Shown: positions 7,820 through 61,625 of the stretch, piece after piece
Layout: every line of letters starts with the position of its first letter
How positions within the stretch are numbered: the first letter of the stretch is position 1
Source of the DNA: Bacteroidia bacterium
Lineage (GTDB): Bacteria; Bacteroidota; Ignavibacteria; SZUA-365
Assembly: GCA_027493955.1 (NCBI GenBank)
Contig: JAOSJT010000001.1
Coordinates: 4,698,552 to 4,762,551 of the forward strand
DNA length: 64,000 nt
Direction: 5' to 3'
The notes under the pieces: generated by a model
Seen by the model: only the letters and a program-made list of their open reading frames with translations
Database searches by the model: none
What the model was told of the DNA's origin: nothing
Made by a program: the position numbers and the translations under genes

Positions 7820-9798
7820 TGTGCGGCATTGCGGGCATGTTCGGACGTAGCGACGAACGGCAGTTGCGTGTGATGACGCAAATGCTGCGGCATCGCGGAC
7901 CCGACGGTGGAGCGGTGTGGTTTGGCGACGACGTGGGATTCGGGCACCGGCGTCTGAAAATAATAGACCTCAGCGAAGCGGCGGCACAACCGATGCTGTC
8001 GGCGGATGGCCGCTGCGCGCTCACGTTCAATGGCGAGATTTTCAATTACCGGGAACTGCGTACACAGTTGCGTGGGCTCGGGTATGCCTTCCGTACGGAA
8101 AGCGACAGCGAGGTACTGCTCGCGGCATGCATGCACTGGGGACAACGCGTCGTGGAACACCTCGTCGGGCAGTTCGCCTTCGCCTATGCGGATGCCGGGT
8201 CCGGACTGCGCATGCTGGTGCGCGACCACCTCGGTGTCAAGCCATTGTACTACGCCGAGAACGGTGATACGCTGTATTTTGCTTCCGAGGCGAAGGCGAT
8301 ACTGGCGGTGCTGCCCGGGACGCGCGAACCCGATTGGAGACATTTTCCGAAGTACCTGACTTTTCTCTGGGTACCCGGGGAGGATACGCTGTTCCGCGAT
8401 GTGCGAAAATTGTCACCCGGCAGCATGCTCATCGAGCGCGCGGGGCGGTGGACCGTCCGTAGTTACTGGAATCCCGTAGAGACGTGGCTGGGTGCGGAGC
8501 AGAGCACGGCAACGGAAGCGGAGCGCGACGAACAGCTCCGCGTACTGCTGGGCGAGGCCGTACAGTCGCAGCTCGTCAGCGATGTGCCGCTCGGACTGCT
8601 GTTGAGCGGCGGATTGGATTCCACCATACTGCTGTCCGCCATGGCCGGGCGTGGGCGTACTCCCGAGGCGATCACGGCAACGTACTCGTCCGAAAGTCGG
8701 GCACGCGACGTGTTCGATGACGATCTGCCGTATGCGCGTTCGGCCGCAGGGGCGTTCGGCGCGGATCTGCGCGAAGCCCTGATTGACGCCGATGTCGTTT
8801 CGCTGTTACCGGAGGTGTTGTGGCAGCTCGACGAACCCCTCGCCGATCCGACCGTGATCACGAACTTCATCCTTACCCGGCAGGCGAAAGCCACACATAC
8901 GGTTCTGCTGACGGGGATGGGCGCGGACGAAATCTTTGCGGGCTATCCCCGTTATGCCGCCACCATGCTCGGCGAGATGCTCCGCACCGTGCCACCGGGA
9001 ATGACGCGTTTTGCCGCGCGCGCGGTCCGCTGGCTCGTGGACAAAGGTGTCGTGCCTTTGGAACAGGCGCGGCGTCCCATGCAGCTGCTCGATCAGTTGG
9101 ACAAGCCATTTGAGGAGCGATATATCGGCTATTCGTCCTACGCGACTTCCGACACGTTGCGGTCGCTGCTTTCCGCGCAAGCGCGACATCCGGGAGAATG
9201 CGGTATCGTGTTCGATCAGCACAGGGAACTGCTCCGCAAGAGCGCGAAACTCAGTCCGCTCTCCCGTATGCTGGCGACGGATCTGATGACCTTCCTTCCG
9301 AAGCTGAATCTCGAGAATATGGATAAAACCAGCATGGCGCATGCTGTGGAAATGCGCGTGCCCTTCCTCGACCACCGCCTGGTGGAATTTGCCATGACGC
9401 TGCCGGACAGTGATAAGCTCGGCGCGAAGGGCGAGAGAAAGGCCATTTTACGCCGGGCATTCGCGAATGCGATCCCCGATGCCATTCTGCGTCGTCCTAA
9501 AACCGGCTATAGTCCGCCCGTGCGCGGTTGGATGCGCGACAGTCTTCGGGAATTCACCGAAGACATGCTGTGCTCAGAGGATGCGTGCAGCAAGGACCTT
9601 TTCCAGCCCGCGGAACTCCGCCGGATAATGGAGGAGAACCGTACCGGCAAACGCGATCATTCCCTGCAACTCTGGGCCATACTCACGTTTGAGGTCTGGC
9701 TCCGGTCGGTCGCGCAGCGGCAAGACTGGACGCCGCCCGTAGATCCGAAGCTACTCCCCGTGATACAGCAACCTACGAGGAACGAAACCCATGAATGA
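7819..9798 (+). CDS. asnB: Glutamine-hydrolysing asparagine synthetase-family amidotransferase
   Basis: 659 residues. The N-terminus begins MCGIAGMFG, so Cys2 is exposed after Met removal as the Ntn-type glutaminase nucleophile, followed by HRGPDGG and FNGEIFNYREL. The synthetase half has the PP-loop ATP motif LLLSGGLDST near residue 265 and GMGADEIFAGYPRY. The enzyme uses glutamine nitrogen to amidate an AMP-activated carboxylate. AsnB paralogues are common in exopolysaccharide clusters, where they may amidate uronic acids, but free asparagine synthesis cannot be excluded. Start codon overlaps the preceding stop by one base, and its end overlaps the next gene by 8 bases, so it belongs to the operon. 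Confidence 0.93.
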   Translation: MCGIAGMFGRSDERQLRVMTQMLRHRGPDGGAVWFGDDVGFGHRRLKIIDLSEAAAQPMLSADGRCALTFNGEIFNYRELRTQLRGLGYAFRTESDSEVLLAACMHWGQRVVEHLVGQFAFAYADAGSGLRMLVRDHLGVKPLYYAENGDTLYFASEAKAILAVLPGTREPDWRHFPKYLTFLWVPGEDTLFRDVRKLSPGSMLIERAGRWTVRSYWNPVETWLGAEQSTATEAERDEQLRVLLGEAVQSQLVSDVPLGLLLSGGLDSTILLSAMAGRGRTPEAITATYSSESRARDVFDDDLPYARSAAGAFGADLREALIDADVVSLLPEVLWQLDEPLADPTVITNFILTRQAKATHTVLLTGMGADEIFAGYPRYAATMLGEMLRTVPPGMTRFAARAVRWLVDKGVVPLEQARRPMQLLDQLDKPFEERYIGYSSYATSDTLRSLLSAQARHPGECGIVFDQHRELLRKSAKLSPLSRMLATDLMTFLPKLNLENMDKTSMAHAVEMRVPFLDHRLVEFAMTLPDSDKLGAKGERKAILRRAFANAIPDAILRRPKTGYSPPVRGWMRDSLREFTEDMLCSEDACSKDLFQPAELRRIMEENRTGKRDHSLQLWAILTFEVWLRSVAQRQDWTPPVDPKLLPVIQQPTRNETHE

Positions 9799-11308
9799 CA
9801 ATGCCACCTCCGGGTCCGCCACAGAACTGCTGCAGCGCTTCCTGACCATTCTGCTCCTTTCGCTCCTGCTCATCGGAAGCGTGGCGCAGCTGCATGTGGG
9901 ACTGGCGGACAACGGTGATTTCTCGCGGCTCTCGCCATGGCTGACCTCCATGCCGGAAGGATACACCGAGAACTGGCCCGCGGAAGCAAGTACGCAATAC
10001 CACGAGCGTTTCTACAACAACGTGATCGCCTTTTGGAAACTCGATATGCCGCTGACGTCACGCTGGGTGAGCTCCATACTGCTGGTCTGGCTGCCGGGCG
10101 CCCTGCTCAATACGTTGTTGTTTTCCACGGACACGTTGTATCTGCCGCTGCTTTCCTTTGCGCCGCGCGTCATTCTGTTACTGTTCGTATGGCTTGTTCT
10201 GCGCTGGCTGCGGCGCGAAACGGCATCTGCTGCCGCGCTGTACTCGGTGCTTCTGGGCGTGCCCCTGGTGTTCTTCGGTTTCAATACCGATTATGTGGCA
10301 TATTTCACGAGCATGTATCAGGAACCCGCATCGCTGATCGGTGTCATTCTCGTGGTCCTGACACTTGCGCGATTTGCGGGACGCGGTGATTCACCCTGGC
10401 GTCCATGGATAGCCGGTGCCGCGTTGCTTTTCCTGACGGGAGCCAAGATCAGCAATGTGCATTGGGCTTTCGTCGGCGCCCTGGTGCTCATACCCTGGAG
10501 CGCATTGCTGCGCAAACCCCGCCGCCTGGCGCTGTATCTGATGCTGGTTCTGATCCTCCCCGCGGCGCTTCCCATTGCACAGGCGAGTCTGTACGGTACG
10601 CGGAAGGTGAACGCATATCAGAGCATTTTTTGCGGAACGCTGCTGTTCAGCGATGCTCCCTGGCAGCACTTGTCGCGGCATGATATGCGGCCCGCCACAA
10701 AGTACATCGGGCATCACGCCTACGGAGTTGAAGGCCGTGAATGTCTGGACCTGTACAGTGATAAACTCAGCCACGCGGCAGTCGCGGAGATGATCGCGCA
10801 CGAGCCGGTGATCGCCTGGCGTATGCTGCTTTTTGCGGCGGACAGCATGCAGCAAGCGGAACTGACACATCTGAGCAAGCATGTGCTGTACAACACGCCC
10901 GGAGCCGCAAAGCACTGGTCGCGTTGGCTGCCGGCGACCGCAGCCATTGATACGCCACTGAATGCGTGGACACGGCTGAAGCTCGCAGTCTTTCCCACAG
11001 GAGCTACACTACTTGCCGTATTCGCTCTCGCACTGCTGCTCTTCGCCGCGGGACTGCGGAGCCGCGACCGAGTGCTGCTCACTATCGCCCTTGTCGGAGT
11101 CCTGCTCGCTCTCGCCGCACCGCTGGACATGTGGATGCAGATTTTCGGCGATGGGCAGCGCGACCTGATCAAGCATCTGTATCTCGCGAACATCTGTTTC
11201 GACGGCATCGCCATACTCTTGCCGGCTTATGTTCTGCGCGTGTTGCAATTGCTCTTTTCCGGAGGCCGAAGCGGCTACTGGATGGAGGATTGGAAACGAT
11301 TGAGCTGA
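9791..11308 (+). CDS. Polytopic membrane protein, WsfD-like glycan biosynthesis candidate
   Basis: 505 residues, ATG at 9791 overlapping the end of asnB. An N-terminal membrane helix (FLTILLLSLLLIGSVAQL) is followed by a periplasmic-type loop with VGLADNGDFSRLSPW and then about nine more hydrophobic segments. The acidic NGDF motif just after the first helix and the multi-span layout resemble GT-C-type or WsfD-like hexose transferase proteins of glycan clusters. This is a recollected resemblance and was not tested by search. A role in adding a sugar at the outer face of the inner membrane would fit the operon. Product name should be treated as tentative. Confidence 0.6.
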   Translation: MNDNATSGSATELLQRFLTILLLSLLLIGSVAQLHVGLADNGDFSRLSPWLTSMPEGYTENWPAEASTQYHERFYNNVIAFWKLDMPLTSRWVSSILLVWLPGALLNTLLFSTDTLYLPLLSFAPRVILLLFVWLVLRWLRRETASAAALYSVLLGVPLVFFGFNTDYVAYFTSMYQEPASLIGVILVVLTLARFAGRGDSPWRPWIAGAALLFLTGAKISNVHWAFVGALVLIPWSALLRKPRRLALYLMLVLILPAALPIAQASLYGTRKVNAYQSIFCGTLLFSDAPWQHLSRHDMRPATKYIGHHAYGVEGRECLDLYSDKLSHAAVAEMIAHEPVIAWRMLLFAADSMQQAELTHLSKHVLYNTPGAAKHWSRWLPATAAIDTPLNAWTRLKLAVFPTGATLLAVFALALLLFAAGLRSRDRVLLTIALVGVLLALAAPLDMWMQIFGDGQRDLIKHLYLANICFDGIAILLPAYVLRVLQLLFSGGRSGYWMEDWKRLS

Positions 11309-19898: not shown

Positions 19899-20160
19899 GG
19901 GAAGCACGGGCGGATGGGACAGACACGAGTGCTGCGGAAGTTCGGACAGACAGGGGATGAGCAAAGAGGAGACCGGAGGGATGCGCCAGCTCCCGATGCG
20001 TGGCATTTCCGTCCAGACGGACGCCGATGTATGGCGCTGGCAGGCACATTCAGCATGTCACCCCGCGCGAAGTCGAAGGGCCTGTCCTGAGTGAGGTTTC
20101 GGCTACGCTCAACCACCGTCGAAGGGTCCGGCGCGTGGATGGATGGATTCTGCGACTCCG

Positions 20161-20304
20161 CTTCGCTCCGCGCAGAATGACAATGGAGGCGCTTCGCTCC
20201 GCGCAGAATGACAATGGAGGCGCTTCGCTCCGCGCAGAATGACAATGGAGGCGCTTCGCTCCGCGCAGAATGACAATGGAGGCGCTTCGCTCCGCGCAGA
20301 ATGA
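20161..20304. repeat. 31-bp tandem array 1 (five register marks)
   Basis: The landmark GAATGAC occurs at 20175, 20206, 20237, 20268 and 20299, exactly 31 bases apart. Between marks the unit reads AATGGAGGCGCTTCGCTCCG followed by CGCA. Each unit can form a small hairpin (GGAG-G-CG, loop CTT, CGCTCC). The last copy switches to ACCGTTGTCTGTCACC, the start of module 2. Confidence 0.93.
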
Positions 20305-20417
20305 CCGTTGTCTGTCACCCCGCGCGAAGTCGAAGGGCCTTTCCTGAGTGAGGTTTCGGCTACGCTCAACCACCGTCGAAGGGTCCGGCGCGTGGGTGGA
20401 TGGATTCTGCGACTCCG

Positions 20418-20530
20418 CTTCGCTCCGCGCAGAATGACAATGGAGGCGCTTCGCTCCGCGCAGAATGACAATGGAGGCGCTTCGCTCCGCGAAGAATGAC
20501 AATGGAGGCGCTTCGCTCCGCGCAGAATGA
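20418..20530. repeat. 31-bp tandem array 2 (four register marks)
   Basis: GAATGAC occurs at 20432, 20463, 20494 and 20525, a 31-base period. The third copy carries a variant CCGCGAAGAATGAC instead of CCGCGCAGAATGAC, a useful marker for tracing copy exchange among the arrays. The array ends with the same ACCGTTGTCTGTCACC junction as array 1. Confidence 0.92.
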
Positions 20531-20643
20531 CCGTTGTCTGTCACCCCGCGCGAAGTCGAAGGGCCTGTCCTGAGTGAGGTTTCGGCTACGCTCAACCACC
20601 GTCGAAGGGTCCGGCGCGTGGATGGATGGATTCTGCGACTCCG

Positions 20644-20911
20644 CTTCGCTCCGCGCAGAATGACAATGGAGGCGCTTCGCTCCGCGCAGAATGACAATGG
20701 AGGCGCTTCGCTCCGCGCAGAATGACAATGGAGGCGCTTCGCTCCGCGCAGAATGACAATGGAGGCGCTTCGCTCCGCGAAGAATGACAATGAAGGCGCT
20801 TCGCTCCGCGCAGAATGACAATGGAGGCGCTTCGCTCCGCGCAGAATGACAATGGAGGCGCTTCGCTCCGCGCAGAATGACAATGGAGGCGCTTCGCTCC
20901 GTGAAGAATGA
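20644..20911. repeat. 31-bp tandem array 3 (nine register marks)
   Basis: GAATGAC occurs at 20658, 20689, 20720, 20751, 20782, 20813, 20844, 20875 and 20906, again every 31 bases. The fifth copy has the CGAAGAATGAC variant also present in array 2, followed by ACAATGAAGG. The final copy has CGTGAAGAATG and ends in ACAATTTGCCC, leaving the repeat. The remaining sequence up to the OPT gene (20937-21158) is ordinary intergenic DNA in which nothing else is recognisable. Confidence 0.93.
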
Positions 20912-21169
20912 CAATTTGCCCTTCCCGCCTGTTTTCCTTGTGTTTCACCGCAGTCCTGTGTAATTTCATGTGTTCCGCAGGATCCGGATAATCGGATCGT
21001 GCAATTGGGCCGCTGCACGCAATCCATCTGACGCAAAGCCACCACCGGCGGTATTCGCCGCGGAATCGGCGGAGCCGCAGGCGGCATCATCTCCGGCATG
21101 GACCGGCACCCGATGCAAACATCGCGCATGAATCCATTTTCATATTCTCTTTTCATTTAGGAGACTTGT

Positions 21170-23793: not shown

Positions 23794-25179
23794 ATGGAAC
23801 ACATCAAGACCGCGCTCAACGAATCGAAAGCCGCACGGTGGACGGCGCTCTTTCTCATCGCCTTCTCGATGCTTGCGGCCTATTTTTTCGTGGACATGCT
23901 GGCACCCTTGCAGCAGTTGCTGGAAGTAAGCTACAAATGGAATCCCGAGGTGTACGGCACCTTTTCCGGTTCGGAGTACTACCTCAACATGTTCGGCTTT
24001 TTGCTGATTTCGGGCATTATTCTCGACAAGCTCGGCATCCGCTTCACCGGCGTGCTTTCGACCTTCCTCATGCTGGGCGGCGGTCTGCTCAAGCTCTACG
24101 CCCTCACGGATTATTTCAACGCCGGCGGTTTCGGGTATGATTTCTTCAACTCGTTTATGACGTGGATGCCCGCATCGGCCAAACTCGCCTCCGTCGGCTA
24201 CGCTGTTTTCGGCATCGGCGTGGAGATGTGCGGTATCACCGCGTCCAAGACCATTGTGAAATGGTTCAAGGGTAAGGAACTGGCGCTGGCCATGGGCATG
24301 GAAATGGCGACGGCGCGCATGGGCGCCTCGGGCGCGTTCTTCTTTTCGGCGATGATTGCGGGCAACGAGCCCAGCCGTTCCGTGGTGGTCGGCTGTGCGC
24401 TGCTGTTCATCGGCATGCTCACCTTCCTCACCTATGTGATCACGCTGGACAAGAAATTCGACAAGGAGATGGGCATAGAGAAGAGCGGCGGGGGAGAGGA
24501 CGAGTTCAAACTCAGCGATCTCGGCAAAATCGTCACCAACAAGGCGTTCTGGTACATTTCCCTGCTGTGCGTGTTGTTTTACTCGGCCGTGTTTCCCTTC
24601 CTGAAATACGCCGTGAACATGATGCAGAACAAGCTTGACGTCGCGGCCGAGACGGGCGGATTGATTTCCGGCTTGCTGCCTGTAGGCACCATTTTGCTCA
24701 CGCCCATCATCGGCAATTACATCGACAAAAAGGGCAAGGCGGCGTCCACGATGATGCTCGGCGCCACACTGCTATTCATCTCGCATCTCATTTTCGCCGT
24801 GGCGCCTCCGAGTATGCCGCTGTATATATTCGCGATACTGTTGCTCGGTGTGGCCTTCTCGCTGGTGCCCGCGTCGCTCTGGCCGTCGGTGCCCAAGGTG
24901 GTGGAGGAGCGCTATCTCGGTTCGGCGTACGCTGTCGTGTTCCTGATACAGAACTGGGGGCTCGGACTTATTCCCGCGTTTATCGGCATCATCCTGACCG
25001 CGGTGAATCCCGGCGTGGCCGAGGCTCTTGCCGGTGGCGACACGAGCGCGCGCTATGACTACACGGTGCCCATGCTCGTATTCGCCTCCCTGGGTGTGCT
25101 GGCTCTGGTTTTCGGCTTCCTGCTCAAAGCCGAAGACAAAAAGAAACAGTACGGCCTGGAAGCCCCGAATGTGAAATAG
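23794..25179 (+). CDS. Major facilitator superfamily transporter
   Basis: 461 residues with about twelve hydrophobic segments and a central hydrophilic loop (ITLDKKFDKEMGIEKSGGGE), the 6+6 arrangement of MFS proteins. The stretch KTIVKWFKGKELALAMGMEMATAR after helix 4 is typical of organic-anion or nitrate-type MFS carriers, and GNYIDKKGKAASTMMLGATL is the second-half equivalent of the A-like motif. Probably a secondary inner-membrane carrier for a small solute; substrate not predictable. The gene ends 42 bases before a long perfect inverted repeat. Confidence 0.88.
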   Translation: MEHIKTALNESKAARWTALFLIAFSMLAAYFFVDMLAPLQQLLEVSYKWNPEVYGTFSGSEYYLNMFGFLLISGIILDKLGIRFTGVLSTFLMLGGGLLKLYALTDYFNAGGFGYDFFNSFMTWMPASAKLASVGYAVFGIGVEMCGITASKTIVKWFKGKELALAMGMEMATARMGASGAFFFSAMIAGNEPSRSVVVGCALLFIGMLTFLTYVITLDKKFDKEMGIEKSGGGEDEFKLSDLGKIVTNKAFWYISLLCVLFYSAVFPFLKYAVNMMQNKLDVAAETGGLISGLLPVGTILLTPIIGNYIDKKGKAASTMMLGATLLFISHLIFAVAPPSMPLYIFAILLLGVAFSLVPASLWPSVPKVVEERYLGSAYAVVFLIQNWGLGLIPAFIGIILTAVNPGVAEALAGGDTSARYDYTVPMLVFASLGVLALVFGFLLKAEDKKKQYGLEAPNVK

Positions 25180-25221: not shown

Positions 25222-25264
25222 CGCGCCGCTGAATGGACAGTCCCCCTGTCTGTTCAGCGGCGCG
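25222..25264 (+). terminator. Long hairpin after the MFS gene
   Basis: CGCGCCGCTGAA (25222-25233) pairs perfectly with TTCAGCGGCGCG (25253-25264), and inner GACAG (25236-25240) pairs with CTGTC (25246-25250). It begins 43 bases after the MFS stop. No U-tract follows, so termination is likely but not certain. Confidence 0.7.
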
Positions 25265-25300: not shown

Positions 25301-25334
25301 CGCTCTCACTCCACCCTTTTGGCGACGAGCATGG
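25301..25334. repeat. Left copy of a 34-bp direct repeat matching a phosphatase gene 3' end
   Basis: This segment matches 29799-29832 in the same orientation at 32 of 34 positions; the core CTCACTCCACCCTTTTGG is identical. On the minus strand both copies read MLVAKRVE-stop, but only the right copy is attached to a real phosphatase gene. The two copies bracket about 4.5 kb of DNA. The rest of 25265-25565 shows no convincing gene; frames on both strands are short and lack recognisable motifs. Confidence 0.85.
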
Positions 25335-25565
25335 GTGACGGGGGAGGCAGGCGGCGGGCGTGGATCGGCCTCCAGCGTGCGTCGCCGAAGCGGACGGGCA
25401 CACCCGGGCGCGGCCGGGATGACGCGACGCCGCCACGACACCGCGATAACGGGAGCGGAGACCCCGCGGTGTTGTACAGTACCATGGTCGATAGGCGGTT
25501 GTGCTTCGAACCAGGATGGCACGCAAAAAAAACGATAAAAAAATATGATAAATATTCCGGAGTAC

Positions 25566-25594
25566 TTGACACGTATGCCGGAAAACGTTACTTT
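25566..25594 (+). promoter_or_regulatory. Candidate promoter upstream of the pentanucleotide-repeat leader
   Basis: A perfect TTGACA (25566-25571) is followed after 17 bases by TACTTT (25589-25594). The extended TTACTTTG also resembles the Bacteroidota -7 element TAnnTTTG. Just upstream is A/T-rich DNA with A-runs (about 25525-25558). Transcription would start near 25601, about 30 bases before the ATG at 25632. Confidence 0.55.
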
Positions 25595-25631
25595 GCCGAT
25601 TCAAAGCCGTGATAGTATCAGGAGGAAGGAC

Positions 25632-25682
25632 ATGTCCCAGCCCAGCCCAGCCCAGCCCAGCCCAGCCCAGCCCAGCCCGTAA
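25632..25682 (+). other. SD-ATG-(CCCAG)8 leader: candidate phase-variable switch
   Basis: GGAGG at 25621-25625 lies 6 bases before an ATG at 25632. That ATG is followed almost at once by eight exact copies of CCCAG (25636-25675) plus CCCG. With eight copies the frame reads M-S-Q-P-S-P-A-Q... and stops at TAA 25680-25682 after 16 codons. One unit more would open a frame ending at 25833 (KDKRIRKTITEF...). One unit fewer would open a frame ending at 25837 (VKRINGYVKLLRN...), overlapping the next ORF start at 25830. Slippage in such repeats is the classic contingency-locus mechanism; whether it operates here is inference. Confidence 0.55.
25636..25675. repeat. CCCAG pentanucleotide microsatellite, eight copies
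   Basis: Eight uninterrupted CCCAG units, ending in CCCGT. Because five is not a multiple of three, every gain or loss of a unit shifts the reading frame. It lies directly behind a start codon with a good Shine-Dalgarno. Confidence 0.97.
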
Positions 25683-25829
25683 AAAGGATAAACGGATACG
25701 TAAAACTATTACGGAATTCAGTGCCGTGCGGCCCGGAATGCGCCTCCGCCCCATTCTCGACTCCCGGGATCGCGCACCTGAACAGAGGCGACGAATCACG
25801 CAACCGCCACGCATATCGGCGAGGTGGCG

Positions 25830-26339
25830 ATGAGTAACAGCATCGGAGTACTGTATGTCGGTGATGTGCTTCACAGGGCCCTGCTGCGCTGCGATGCCTT
25901 TTCCCACGATTGTTTGCGCCGCGTTGTGCGGGCGGATTGCCGCGCCGTCGTGTCCAACGGCGCGCACAACGGCATTGCGCTGTATGCGACCTTCCGGCGG
26001 ATGCACGAAGGTATTGTGCGGGACGAGTTCCTCCGCCCCGTGATCGGCCATCTGATCTGCAACATCGGAGGCTGCCTGTTCTTTCATGAAGACGGAGAAG
26101 AGGAGTGGCTGTCGGGCACTTTCCGGCAGATCGGTTGCGAAGCCGCGACAAGCGCGTTGCTCGTCGTCTGCTCCTCGCAATCGCAACTGCGCGAAGCGCT
26201 TGCCTGCGCCGGGCCGTGGTTTCAACCGGCACCGGAAGCGACTCAAACCGAACCGCGCGGGACTCCCCGACGATGGAGTTGCCTGTTGATCGCGAACGGC
26301 CGCGGCCGGCCCGATGCGCCCCGATGCGCGGACACATAA
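25830..26339 (+). CDS. Hypothetical protein downstream of the CCCAG switch
   Basis: 169 residues from the ATG at 25830, with GAGG at 25821-25824 and a 5-base spacer; a GTG at 25824 is an alternative. I do not recognise a family. It is rich in Cys and Arg, and the middle part (GHLICNIGGCLFFHEDGEEEWL, TSALLVVCSS) looks like a small alpha/beta fold. G/C-rich third positions favour coding on this strand over the competing minus-strand frame. No signal peptide or membrane span. The -1-unit frame of the CCCAG leader would end inside its start region, so translation could be coupled. It is followed 30 bases later by the lipoprotein gene. Moderately likely to be real. Confidence 0.45.
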   Translation: MSNSIGVLYVGDVLHRALLRCDAFSHDCLRRVVRADCRAVVSNGAHNGIALYATFRRMHEGIVRDEFLRPVIGHLICNIGGCLFFHEDGEEEWLSGTFRQIGCEAATSALLVVCSSQSQLREALACAGPWFQPAPEATQTEPRGTPRRWSCLLIANGRGRPDAPRCADT

Positions 26340-26369
26340 TGGTTACACACACACCCTGGAGATAGCCCC

Positions 26370-27551
26370 ATGACAACCCATGTACCCCACTCGCGAAATA
26401 GTCTGCGCAGCGGACGCTGGCTGCGGCGCCAGGCGCTGGTTTTGCCGCTGCTGCCCGCGCTGCTGCTCGCGCTCGCCTCCTGCGACGAGCCGGTGGAGCC
26501 CGTGCCGCCGCCGCCGCATGTACAGCAGGACACCACCAGCCACGAGATAGAATGGACGGTGTACCGCTTCGGGCCCGGCATACCTTCCAGCTCGTTGCGG
26601 GATATAATCGCATTCAGCGATACCAACGTCTGGGCGGTGGGTGGTGTGTACCCCGACACGCCGGATACGGGAGCGCTGGGGAAAAAACCCTACACCGTGC
26701 TGCACTGGAACGGCAGGGAGTGGAAGAAATTCAAGGTGCCGATGCAACGTTGTACCTCGCAGAACACGTTTTTCTCGCCGTTTGAAGCAATAGCGGGTAA
26801 TGCTAATGATTTATGGCTGGGTTCTAGTGCGGGAGAAGGTGCAAGATGGGATGGAGTGAACTTCTATCCTGCCTGTATCATGGCTGATTCCTCCCTTTCA
26901 TGGGGGGCCGCCTGTAAAGACATACTGCATTACTCGGAGAATGAAGTGTATTTTGCCGGTGATTTGTTGGGAATTGGCGAAATTACCAAATATACAAACG
27001 GGAGGTATTCGCGTATTTCCACCTTCCCCTACTCCCCGGTCACTTCCCTTGCCGGCGACGGGAAGGGGAATCTGTGGGCGGGGGGGTATGATTACAACAC
27101 GGGGAAGGGCAGTTTCGTCTGGCGCACGCCGGATGGGACGGTAAGGGATATCCGAAAGCGGGAGCGTATTGATAAAAAGTGGGAGTTCGGCGGGGCACTG
27201 GCCTTGTGGATAAGCCACGACTCACTATACGCCAGTGTAGCGGGGTACCTGTACATTCAGTCGTTGTATGATACCACGCATTATCGTTATCTCCGCATCG
27301 CGGAAGCTGATCCAACCAGGGGAGCCAAGGTGTGCATAGCGGGTCTCGCGGACAACGATGTATTTTTGGCTGGGAGTTTTTGCACCGTGGTACATTATAA
27401 CGGGAAGAGCCTGCGCTCATACCCCGAACTTACCGCTGAATTCGACGGAGGTCGATTCTATCAGGTGAGTCTGACCCGGGACCACGTCTATTTATGCGGT
27501 TACGACGACCAGACACGCGCAATCGCAGTTATTGGGAAAAGAAGGCATTAA
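26370..27551 (+). CDS. Predicted lipoprotein with beta-propeller-like repeats
   Basis: 393 residues, ATG at 26370 with GGAG eight bases upstream. A lipoprotein signal is clear: basic N-terminus, ALVLPLLPALLLALASC with the lipobox Cys at about residue 36, and then an acidic/proline linker (DEPVEPVPPPP) expected for a mature tether. The rest has repeated strands such as IIAFSDTNVWAVGG, GNANDLWLGSS, SENEVYFAGDL and GKGNLWAGG, typical of a propeller built of D-x-W/V-aG blocks. Probably anchored in the outer membrane; function unknown. Base composition becomes distinctly more A/T-rich from about 26760 onward than in neighbouring genes, which fits transfer or a mosaic origin. Confidence 0.75.
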   Translation: MTTHVPHSRNSLRSGRWLRRQALVLPLLPALLLALASCDEPVEPVPPPPHVQQDTTSHEIEWTVYRFGPGIPSSSLRDIIAFSDTNVWAVGGVYPDTPDTGALGKKPYTVLHWNGREWKKFKVPMQRCTSQNTFFSPFEAIAGNANDLWLGSSAGEGARWDGVNFYPACIMADSSLSWGAACKDILHYSENEVYFAGDLLGIGEITKYTNGRYSRISTFPYSPVTSLAGDGKGNLWAGGYDYNTGKGSFVWRTPDGTVRDIRKRERIDKKWEFGGALALWISHDSLYASVAGYLYIQSLYDTTHYRYLRIAEADPTRGAKVCIAGLADNDVFLAGSFCTVVHYNGKSLRSYPELTAEFDGGRFYQVSLTRDHVYLCGYDDQTRAIAVIGKRRH

Positions 27552-27672
27552 TCCTGTATAATGATCAACGGAGGTTCACGCTCGATTCTGGCAACACATT
27601 GTTCTTCAACCCGTTTACCACAACCAGATCATCATGCACCAATTATTCTATTATTCTCATTGGAGATGTCTT

Positions 27673-29835
27673 ATGTCAAAATTTGCATTCGTCGCCATCG
27701 CGCTGTTGTGCGCGATGGGACTTCCGCCCGACAGTCACGCGCAGGAATACCACGGTGGCCCATTGGAAGGTTCGTATGTCCAATACCCCGGCGGTGGTCC
27801 GCTGTCAATTGATCCCGGCTGCCTCGTCGGGCTGAACGTCGTCCTTCACATCCTTCGGGGTCCGCAGGGAGAGGGAGGAATCACCACCAACGAGGCGCTC
27901 GCATCGTTCGAGTACCTCAACGACGTATTTTCGGCGTACAACATCACTTTCGTGCATCTGGACGATCAAAATCCGGTGCGTGTACACAATCTGCCAAACT
28001 ACTCGTATTGGCCTCTTCCCGAGTACGCCGGCCTGACAGTGTCGGGATGGTATCGGGAGGCCAACGCTATCAACATTTACTATGTCGATGGAGCCAGCAA
28101 TGAAGGGTGGCTGGGATTCACCACGAGCAGATCCGCCGCCGATATGTTTATTCGTACGGGATACCAGACGCTCTATCCGATGATTCACGAAATGGGTCAT
28201 TGCTTCGGGCTGAGGCACACCCACGGCGATCCCTCGAGTCACGATGAGCTCGTCACCCGCGGTCCCGGAGCGAATTGCGCCACGGCCGGGGATATGCTCT
28301 GCGATACACCGGCCGAACCCTGGAACAATGATGGCGGTATCCGCACCTATGTAAATATGAGTTGCGAGTACACTGGCACATTCAAGGATGCGAATGACGA
28401 ATACTACACGCCGGATACGCACAACTACATGAGCTACACGAATATTCACGATTGCTACACACACTTCTCTGCCGGTCAGGTTGCTCTGATGCGGTCGTAT
28501 ATCGCGAATGACCAGTTTCTGATATTTCAGACTATTGCCGGACAAAGGGTCCGCTTCGCGAATATCGTCGGAGGGCAGGAGCATGCTTCGGGCGACATTC
28601 GGATCTATGATACATACGACAACGCGTTCCACACCGGTACGTCGCCGTTCGAAATTGACCTGCCTGCCTGCATTTCATACAGCGCGCATACTCTCTCGGA
28701 GCGTCTGTTGTCTCAGGCTTCGGTGTATGAAAAACACCAATCCTGGAATGAGGACTTCGGAACATTCAAACTGAAGAAAACGCTGTCGATTCCGATGAGC
28801 CAAACTGTATGGGATGAACAGGCGTGGTTCCGTCCCATGTCCCCCCTCACACTCACCGTCGAGAGCGACGGAGGGACGTTGGCGCCGAACATCCTCTTCA
28901 AAGATCCATGGTTCATGGAAACGGACGGCTCGCAGCCGGTGAGCTTCCTGTCCTTCGCCGCTCCCCACAGCCCGACGGGCGCAAGGGCCGAGCAAACGGG
29001 AGGGGTGTTTGAGCACCTCAATAATCCCGACTTTCCGAAATACCTCTACCAAGCCAACAGATATCTCGACGGGAATCTCGACGCGAAGCAATTGCCTCTC
29101 GACGTGGGGGACTGGGTGTGCACCGGTATGTACAGCAGCGACGCGAACGCGGCCGAGGTGCTGGAAAGCGCGGAGTATCCCGACCTCGTCTCCACACGCT
29201 TCGCTCCGACGCTGACCCGCATCGTGCAGGTTAATCAGGACAATGCCGAAGTGCGCGCAGAGTACAAGGCGCATCGCTGCTCGGTGAACAACGAAAGGCC
29301 CAGCGCCGGCAACTCGCAACGGCGTATCGTGTTCGACAAGCTCGACGCCTCGCTGCAACAGTCGGACCGGCATTACGCAGTCTACGAAAGCGATGGGCGT
29401 ATCTACCTCATCATGAGCGAAGACGCCGGAAGCAGTTGGTCCGCCGAGGCGCTTGTCACCGATCCCTCCGCGACCTGCAAGCGTCCCTCGCTCGCCATCG
29501 CCGATTATGACGAGGCCCCCGGGCTGCTGTATCTCGTGTATGTGGACGTGGACAACAGCGAGGTGGTGCTGAAGAAACGGGAATCGTGGTCGTCGCTCTC
29601 CTGGACGGAGATCGACCGCATCGCCGTGACCGACCCCGAACAATGCCATCCGTCCGTCTCCGCGCTGGTGATATCCGGTGGCGTCCCCGCCGTGGCGACG
29701 GCGTGGGAGGATGTCGGCGTGGTCATACCCCCGAGCCAGACCGCGACGAACGGGACCAAACCCTGCTCAACGAAAATGACAGGATTTATTGATCACTCCG
29801 CCCTCACTCCACCCTTTTGGCAACGAGCATGGTGA
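27673..29835 (+). CDS. Secreted M43 (pappalysin/cytophagalysin-like) metalloprotease, apparently truncated
   Basis: 720 residues from the ATG at 27673, preceded by TTGGAGATG; the frame extends farther upstream but MSKFAFVAIALLCAMG is the obvious signal peptide (cleavage after SHAQ). The zinc site HEMGHCFGLRHTH at about residue 172 and the Met-turn NYMSYT near 251 define family M43. Downstream are beta-rich segments and a BNR-like part (YLIMSEDAGSSWSAEAL). Family members in this lineage usually end in a T9SS sorting domain; this one ends abruptly in HSALTPPFWQRAW, encoded by the direct repeat shared with 25301-25334, and overlaps the convergent phosphatase gene by 32 bases. It therefore looks 3'-truncated, and may not be surface-anchored normally. 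Confidence 0.88.
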   Translation: MSKFAFVAIALLCAMGLPPDSHAQEYHGGPLEGSYVQYPGGGPLSIDPGCLVGLNVVLHILRGPQGEGGITTNEALASFEYLNDVFSAYNITFVHLDDQNPVRVHNLPNYSYWPLPEYAGLTVSGWYREANAINIYYVDGASNEGWLGFTTSRSAADMFIRTGYQTLYPMIHEMGHCFGLRHTHGDPSSHDELVTRGPGANCATAGDMLCDTPAEPWNNDGGIRTYVNMSCEYTGTFKDANDEYYTPDTHNYMSYTNIHDCYTHFSAGQVALMRSYIANDQFLIFQTIAGQRVRFANIVGGQEHASGDIRIYDTYDNAFHTGTSPFEIDLPACISYSAHTLSERLLSQASVYEKHQSWNEDFGTFKLKKTLSIPMSQTVWDEQAWFRPMSPLTLTVESDGGTLAPNILFKDPWFMETDGSQPVSFLSFAAPHSPTGARAEQTGGVFEHLNNPDFPKYLYQANRYLDGNLDAKQLPLDVGDWVCTGMYSSDANAAEVLESAEYPDLVSTRFAPTLTRIVQVNQDNAEVRAEYKAHRCSVNNERPSAGNSQRRIVFDKLDASLQQSDRHYAVYESDGRIYLIMSEDAGSSWSAEALVTDPSATCKRPSLAIADYDEAPGLLYLVYVDVDNSEVVLKKRESWSSLSWTEIDRIAVTDPEQCHPSVSALVISGGVPAVATAWEDVGVVIPPSQTATNGTKPCSTKMTGFIDHSALTPPFWQRAW
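29799..29832. repeat. Right copy of the 34-bp direct repeat
   Basis: Matches 25301-25334 at 32 of 34 positions. It forms the last codons of the minus-strand phosphatase gene and, in the opposite direction, the last codons of the metalloprotease frame. Confidence 0.85.
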
Positions 29836-31549
29836 TGTCGTCACTTTGGGGGGCGCCGCGGGTGTAGGCTACTATTTCGTCGCGGATTTTGGAAATGGCG
29901 CCGTCGGCTCCCTGGCTGCGGCATTGATGTACAAGGTCGAGAAAGCGCTCGTCGCCGAACTCCACCATGTCCGCGGACATCGCTTCATTGACGCCGTCGG
30001 TGTAACCTATGAGCACGTCGCCGGGATGCAGCTGTATGCTGCCGGCGCTGTACGGCGGCGGCGTTTCCAGGATGCCGAGTATGAGGCCACCGTCGCTCAG
30101 TTTTTCCACTATGCCATCGCCGCGGAGTACATAGGGAGGATTGTGACCGGCATTGACGTACTCGAAGGTATGCGCGCGCGTGTCGAGCACGCCCCAGAAA
30201 AACGTGATGAACTTGTCTATATCGGTATTGCTGTAAATCAGACTGTTAATGCGCGCGGTGGCTTCGGGCAGCGGCAGGCGCAGCGGCGCGATGGTGCGTA
30301 ACGCCGCCTGCACATTGGCCATCAGCAGCGCTGCGGGTATGCCCTTGCCCGCCACATCGCCTATGGCGAGCACATACTCGTGCTCGGACAGGGTAATGAT
30401 GTCGTAGTAATCGCCGCCCACCTGCTGCGAACTCTCGTTGATCGCGCCGATGTCGTAAAAAGGTATCGCGGGGATACGCTTCGGGAGCAGACCCTGCTGA
30501 ATGGATTTCGCAAGACTGAGCTCTTTTTCGATACGCTGCTTTTCCAGCATCTCACCGAACAGCCGCGCATTCTCGATTTCGGAAATGGTCATTTTCGCGA
30601 GAGCGCTGAGGTACTCGAGTTCGCTGCGATCGAAACTCTCGCCTCCGACGCGGTCGCCCAGGCACAGCACCCCGCGAAGTTCGTTTTGCGAGAGCATGGG
30701 CACGATGCAATGCACGCCCTGCGCCTGCAGCCATTGTTCGACCGGAACCTCCGCGGGGCGTCGCGCAGAGAACTGGATGGTTTCACGGAGCGACATCATT
30801 GCCTCACCCATGTCGTCGCGGTCCGCGAAATCCGGCATGCGGACGCTGACAGGCCGGAGACGTGTGCCGTCCCAGCAATACACCACGTAGCGCAGCACAC
30901 GCAGCTGGCCCATCAGCGCGTAGCCGAGAATGCGGAGAATGGTGCTCATGTCGAAGGTGGTGTTCATCTCGCGGCTCAGCTCGAACAGGGTGTTCATTTC
31001 CTGCACCTTCTTGTCGAGCCGGCGATTGACCAGACGCAGTTCCTCGATGGTGACGGCGCTGCGCACCGCGGTGGCCGCCACGGCCGCGACGGACTCCAGG
31101 AACGTGATATCCGAAGATTCGAAGGGCTTGCCGGTGATCTTTCCGCTGAAGGCGAGTATGCCCACCATGCGCTCCTCGAGTCGCATCGGGATGACGATTT
31201 CGAGTGCGCAGTCCGCGCAGCACCGGGCGAAATCGCGCACCTGCTGATTGTCGTCTTCAAGCAAGGATGCGACGGAGCGCAGGTGCTCCCACTGTACGGG
31301 AATGTCGAATTGCTTGTCCGCGTCGAAGCCATGGATGCCTTTGGTCTCGCGCAGGCGGTAGCTGCGCTCCCCGCTTTCCACGAACACGGCGCTCCGCGTC
31401 ACCAGCAATTTCCCCATGGACGAGAGCAGCACATTGCCGAGGATGAAATCCAGGTCCGTCGAGGCATTGAGCACATTGCTCAGTTCCAGCAATGCGCCGC
31501 TGTCCGAGATGATGTCGCGTGCGGTGGTATCCATGGGAGATTCGGGCAA
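29804..31549 (-). CDS. RsbU-type PP2C phosphatase with N-terminal GAF domains
   Basis: 581 residues. The start is a TTG at 31549, preferred over the ATG at 31534 because AGGAAG lies 5 bases upstream of the TTG. Two GAF-like sensor regions occupy about 25-170 and 195-340. The SpoIIE/PP2C domain follows a KQRIEKELSLAKSIQQGLLP linker helix, with metal-binding GGDYYD near 376, GDVAGKGIPAALLM, YTDGVNEA near 515 and DDITMLV near 568. It would dephosphorylate an RsbV-like antagonist in response to a GAF ligand. It is the last gene of the minus-strand partner-switch cluster, separated from the RsbW-like gene by 308 bases. Confidence 0.93.
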   Translation of the reverse strand: MPESPMDTTARDIISDSGALLELSNVLNASTDLDFILGNVLLSSMGKLLVTRSAVFVESGERSYRLRETKGIHGFDADKQFDIPVQWEHLRSVASLLEDDNQQVRDFARCCADCALEIVIPMRLEERMVGILAFSGKITGKPFESSDITFLESVAAVAATAVRSAVTIEELRLVNRRLDKKVQEMNTLFELSREMNTTFDMSTILRILGYALMGQLRVLRYVVYCWDGTRLRPVSVRMPDFADRDDMGEAMMSLRETIQFSARRPAEVPVEQWLQAQGVHCIVPMLSQNELRGVLCLGDRVGGESFDRSELEYLSALAKMTISEIENARLFGEMLEKQRIEKELSLAKSIQQGLLPKRIPAIPFYDIGAINESSQQVGGDYYDIITLSEHEYVLAIGDVAGKGIPAALLMANVQAALRTIAPLRLPLPEATARINSLIYSNTDIDKFITFFWGVLDTRAHTFEYVNAGHNPPYVLRGDGIVEKLSDGGLILGILETPPPYSAGSIQLHPGDVLIGYTDGVNEAMSADMVEFGDERFLDLVHQCRSQGADGAISKIRDEIVAYTRGAPQSDDITMLVAKRVE

Positions 31550-61417: not shown

Positions 61418-61562
61418 GATAGTACCCCCCAAGAGGTGAAATAACACGACTTGTCCGGAAGAATATCCTCACCGAGAAGATACCGTGGATACGCGGTAAT
61501 AGCAATCCAACAGCTGTCAGACGATTCAACATAAGATAGTTCTACATCGGCTGATCGTATGC

Positions 61563-61625
61563 GATGCGGTCCTTGTTAGCGATGCGGTCCTTGTTAGCGA
61601 TGCGGTCCTTGTTAGCGATGCGGTC
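61563..61625. repeat. 18-bp tandem repeat, 3.5 copies
   Basis: GATGCGGTCCTTGTTAGC occurs three times exactly (61563, 61581, 61599) followed by a half unit. On the plus strand it reads as MRSLLA repeats, but no gene is supported. Confidence 0.95.

Follow-up and report, generated by a model that had tools for sequence, protein, structure and literature searches.

Mobile elements that depend on tyrosine recombinases commonly carry direct repeats of 8–60 bp and are commonly found at the 3' ends of housekeeping genes, where one of the repeats completes the gene (PMC5704250). Elements whose integration and transfer genes were lost, while attL and attR are retained, are described as CIMEs (PMC5704250). 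Here, we analyzed a 64,000-nt stretch of contig JAOSJT010000001.1 (hereafter the window), in which a segment of about 4.5 kb resembles a CIME: direct repeats stand at both ends, one of them completes an intact protein gene at its 3' end, the site is empty in relatives, and the cargo has neither integrase nor transfer genes. It differs in that no related element whose integrase acts at this site was found, and the cargo is a single truncated surface-protein operon. Another described system to which the cargo can be compared is the SSR contingency loci of Haemophilus and Neisseria, where short units of a length that is not a multiple of 3 closely follow the start codon, within surface-protein genes or in front of them, as they do here.

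In kind the insertion is ordinary, with one interesting feature in its cargo. As a case from a little-studied group it is clean and lineage-specific, and it corrects the view of low GC as a mark of foreign DNA. The more useful lead is a pair of short-repeat arrays, each behind a start codon in one of two paralogous surface-protein operons; with it, phase variation in free-living Ignavibacteria can be tested directly from the repeat lengths in reads.

The two direct repeats (25301–25334 and 29799–29832; 34 bp each) have the same orientation, are identical at 32 of 34 bases and are spaced by 4,498 bp. This match had been noticed in an earlier, sequence-only reading of the window, and our recomputation confirmed it, together with the statement that a phosphatase gene ends in the right copy and that the left copy is an isolated tail. 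The right copy (minus strand) is the real gene end and reads ATG CTC GTT GCC AAA AGG GTG GAG TGA plus flanking bases, while the left copy (also minus strand) consists of the phosphatase 3' tail MLVAKRVE-stop plus 3' flank. By chance, about 4e-8 to 9e-8 such 34-bp pairs, i.e. ~1e-7, are expected in 64 kb, and searching the whole 5.24-Mb genome for the 34-mer revealed these two copies and no third. Outside the repeat block at 19.3–21.2 kb, only two other exact matches of at least 19 nt occur in the window, one of them a 23-nt pair near 59 kb and the other an 18-bp tandem. Across 533 kb sampled from this genome, non-dispersed direct repeats of similar length and spacing are rare, and those present are of different kinds, for example tandem lipoprotein duplicates. 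A hairpin at 25222–25264 (19-nt inverted repeat, 89% complementary, 5-nt loop) lies 3' of the MFS gene in the native left flank and is probably the terminator of that gene.

The phosphatase (29804–31549, minus strand) is an intact protein of SpoIIE/RsbU type with GAF-GAF-PP2C organization (Pfam SpoIIE at 2e-49, plus GAF), and it keeps its own stop codon despite the insert. Its orthologues within the family are 50–69% identical to it and put the genome among MAGs labelled Ignavibacteria/Bacteroidetes. The operon to which it belongs (phosphatase, HATPase, STAS and second phosphatase) is conserved in most relatives where the contig or stretch shows it. We searched 11 genomes of the same family and 4 of the same order, and the regions were read in 11 and 2 of them, respectively. 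In all 13 an MFS gene lies 13–290 bp from the orthologous phosphatase end; it is convergent with the phosphatase in 8, as in the window, and in the other 5 its place is taken by a different MFS gene, encoded on the same strand as the phosphatase. None of the 13 has a lipoprotein or protease gene between the phosphatase and the MFS gene, or a second copy of its own phosphatase end nearby, and no element was found at this phosphatase end across the relatives examined. Thus the comparison with related genomes that the sequence-only reading had proposed shows the phosphatase beside an MFS gene, without insert or second tail. Because the site is empty in all 13 relatives, 25335–29832 is a lineage-specific insertion. 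The MLVAKRVE tail is specific to this genome; the relatives' tails differ, so the 34-bp core is not conserved, and the duplication arose after the genus split off, within its own lineage. There is thus good support for what had been suggested from the repeats, namely an insertion at the 3' end of the phosphatase gene that duplicated this end.

Between OPT/PqqD and the phosphatase, the MFS gene (23794–25179) is swapped among relatives, at 25–39% identity and in both orientations, whereas the OPT neighbour is conserved at 58–89% identity, so a small variable slot lies between conserved genes. In one relative (G007), two extra secreted-protein genes are found at the OPT-phosphatase slot.

The inserted segment itself (25335–29798, plus strand; the 4,498-bp period includes one repeat copy) gave no Rfam match, and a clear coding signal is absent from the ~230 bp after the left repeat. 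A promoter-like site, TTGACA-17-TACTTT (25566–25595, plus strand), can be suggested next. The same site is also readable as TTG-19-TTACTTTG, which is Bacteroidota-like; it is weak, falling below the threshold of a sigma-70 scan, and AGGAGGAAGGAC-ATG stands 3' of it. The short leader ORF (25632–25680, plus strand) starts with ATG TCC followed by (CCCAG)8.6, an array at 25636–25678 that is unique in the genome. At the present copy number the leader stops after 16 codons. We computed its reading frames for -2 to +2 CCCAG units: with +1 or -2 units the leader has 63–68 codons and ends at a TGA overlapping the next ATG (ATGA), and with -1 or +2 units it ends at a TAA a few bases beyond the ATGA. 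Gain or loss of CCCAG units would thus relocate the stop of the leader, now at codon 16, to the point where the next ORF begins, and translational coupling would then switch the downstream genes. The ORF whose ATG overlaps this TGA (25830–26339, plus strand; 169 codons) has a weak coding signal. It was already listed as unknown in the earlier reading and turned out to be an orphan in all databases searched, with no homologue in 60 relatives, plasmids, IMG/VR, Pfam, NCBIfam or PHROGs; its single-sequence fold (pLDDT 38) is useless.

Two larger genes follow on the plus strand. The first (26370–27551) encodes a beta-propeller lipoprotein with one Reg_prop match, and about seven paralogues of it occur at 7 other places in the genome. 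The second (27634–29750) is a truncated M43-type metalloprotease-like gene with a propeller part and the motif HEMGHCFGLRH; its Pfam M43 score of 22.5 bits (E 1e-4) is just below the curated cut-off of 23. It shares a signal-peptide-like N-terminus, the HExxHxxGxxH motif and the propeller-like part with T9SS-sorted M43 proteases, but not the sorting tail and ~450 residues. For the lipoprotein-protease pair, G007 has the best homologue, with 55% identity to each gene and the order protease-lipoprotein. The protease homologue of G007 and the paralogues in the own genome extend ~450 aa further to a T9SS sorting tail (TIGR04183), and this C-terminal sorting domain (TIGR04183 / PF18962) is absent from the window copy. 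The truncated protease has probably lost surface sorting. For the missing 3' half, no high-identity match was found elsewhere in the genome (best 41%). According to the earlier reading, the protease is truncated exactly at the repeat. This holds for the reading frame, which continues into the right repeat and meets a chance stop there, but the homology stops at WEDVGVVIPPSQT near 29745–29750, ~45–50 bp before the right repeat, and a stretch of ~48 bp (29751–29798) between the two is unassigned. In the closest protease homologue (G007 contig C280, L066) the N-terminal M43 half is lost, while in the window copy it is the C-terminal half.

GC is lower (~53%) around 26.5–28.7 kb, and the lipoprotein and protease genes fit the host codon usage worse than the flanking genes do. 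The lower GC remarked on earlier for the lipoprotein gene is therefore real, but as a sign of foreignness it fails, because paralogous modules elsewhere in the genome share it. In codon usage, the paralogues at 2.72, 2.75, 3.08 and 5.22 Mb have similar values. Codon usage as proof of transfer was rejected on the same ground, since the genome's own paralogues score alike. Composition thus neither supports nor refutes a recent transfer, and the odd values are a trait of the lipoprotein/protease gene family in this genome.

As to how the segment arrived, one lineage-specific event would have put a 4.5-kb surface-protein operon fragment directly downstream of the phosphatase. The operon would have brought along its promoter-like site, repeat-switchable leader, orphan ORF, propeller lipoprotein and secreted M43-type protein, and the insertion would have duplicated 34 bp of the gene end, sparing the phosphatase stop codon. 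The most likely route, which we infer tentatively, is site-specific integration followed by decay to a CIME-like element. The 34-bp repeat would be the attL/attR core of an integration at a gene 3' end, and the integrated element would later have shed its integrase along with part of its right side, so that a cis-mobilizable-like remnant was left. That no integrase is visible had been noted before and agrees with our search: there is no integrase, relaxase or excision gene among the insert ORFs, and all matches to PF00589 (tyrosine recombinase) in the genome lie outside the insert. This lack tells against site-specific integration, as do the absence of an element at the phosphatase end in the relatives examined and the weak coding signal of an orphan ORF that has no relatives. 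The sole phage-type tyrosine integrase of the genome, at 5.08 Mb, was rejected as the mover, with no site like the 34-mer in the 36 kb around it. Insertion of a DDE transposon or IS does not fit either, as the terminal 60 bp of the insert contain no terminal inverted repeat (best 10/15) and the duplication is 34 bp, compared with target duplications of 2–14 bp.

Nearly equal to site-specific integration in our judgment is an illegitimate capture, in which repair or replication joined a random operon fragment and re-copied 34 bp, by a template switch or by staggered-end fill-in, without any mobile element. Such a capture would account for insert ends that look arbitrary, with a gene cut midway and ~48 bp of filler, for the lack of mobility genes and terminal inverted repeats in the insert, and for a repeat that occurs at no other genome site. 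However, a 34-bp duplication that overlaps yet spares a gene end is more usual for integrase sites (PMC5704250), and by our own rough estimate the duplication would hit the gene end in ~1/5 of random viable insertions. The genome has no Ku gene either; classical end joining is thus unavailable and NHEJ capture disfavoured, so a capture would need template switching or another Ku-independent route.

Two further histories are far less probable. The left tail may be the remnant of a second phosphatase copy from an old tandem duplication, the operon fragment having taken the place of the rest of that copy; the 2 differences in 34 positions of this tail would fit, and tandem duplication is common around the lipoprotein family (the 397-bp repeat at 2.75 Mb and the 86% duplicate at 4.07 Mb, see below). 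We consider it unlikely, because two coincident events would be needed, the homology of the copies ends at 34 bp with a possible gapped extension of 3–5 bp and nothing convincing beyond, and two adjacent phosphatase copies were seen in no relative examined. Slightly more doubtful still is a homologous replacement through the conserved flanks (OPT and the phosphatase operon) from a relative carrying the segment, with the 34-bp repeat as an incidental feature. The variability of the OPT-phosphatase slot described above, in the identity and orientation of its MFS gene and in the two further secreted-protein genes of G007, is in keeping with such exchanges, but a replacement explains the arrival and not the origin of the repeat, and no donor with the same arrangement was found.

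Apart from the question of arrival, the leader array has a counterpart elsewhere in the genome. We scanned 571 kb for short tandem arrays, comprising module loci that were chosen deliberately and an evenly spaced sample of 400 kb, and found arrays of 4–5-nt units at two places only: CCCAG in the window and (CCAC)10 at 1.07 Mb. The 400-kb sample and the relatives' loci examined contain none. The (CCAC)10 array (genome 1,072,954–1,072,993) comes directly after ATG GAG CTG TA of a T9SS-tailed gene (genome 1,072,943–1,076,353; L221:944–4354), which adjoins a paralogue of the window lipoprotein (E 3e-17). This gene is in frame (ON) at 10 units and OFF at 8, 9, 11 and 12. It represents the classical SSR type with the layout of a contingency locus, the array being inside the gene itself, whereas the window array precedes the operon, within a short leader ORF, where switching would work through coupling, in one genome. 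The leader had been called switchable in the sequence-only reading. The frame shift behind this is computed and the second array makes the switch more credible, while the coupling would be the predicted step. Taken together, the two arrays behind start codons support phase variation of the surface-protein family, as an association and not as a measured enrichment. A broader proposal would be that in this Ignavibacteria lineage the operons of propeller lipoproteins and T9SS proteins are a family of phase-variable surface modules that carry their switches, 4–5-nt arrays behind the first start codon, along with them. A recombinase supplied in trans would move such modules from one gene 3' end to another, with the gene end duplicated in the process; at present we regard this proposal as quite improbable.

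Flanking repeats were also considered as an insertion signature of the lipoprotein modules and rejected, as the modules have no common signature. For example, the 154-bp repeat that flanks the 5.22-Mb module is dispersed over the whole genome, with 31 matches. At 2.75 Mb there is a 397-bp direct repeat with 97% identity (L070:7479–7875 and 9636–10029), which is a tandem duplication of the 5' end of a lipoprotein paralogue plus its upstream region, behind a truncated partner gene; this module has an M16 peptidase neighbour, and its flanks are not conserved, so synteny is uninformative. At 4.07 Mb (L220:4929–7448), two tandem lipoprotein paralogues with 86% DNA identity have a transposase-like ORF and tandem arrays of 72 bp close by.

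Other repeats in the window include a tandem array of 31-bp and 226-bp units at 20056–20915, of which a similar GGAGCGAAGCGGAGTCGCAGAA-type repeat is arrayed at 5.07 Mb, and a perfect 18-bp tandem repeat with 3.6 copies at 61561–61625.
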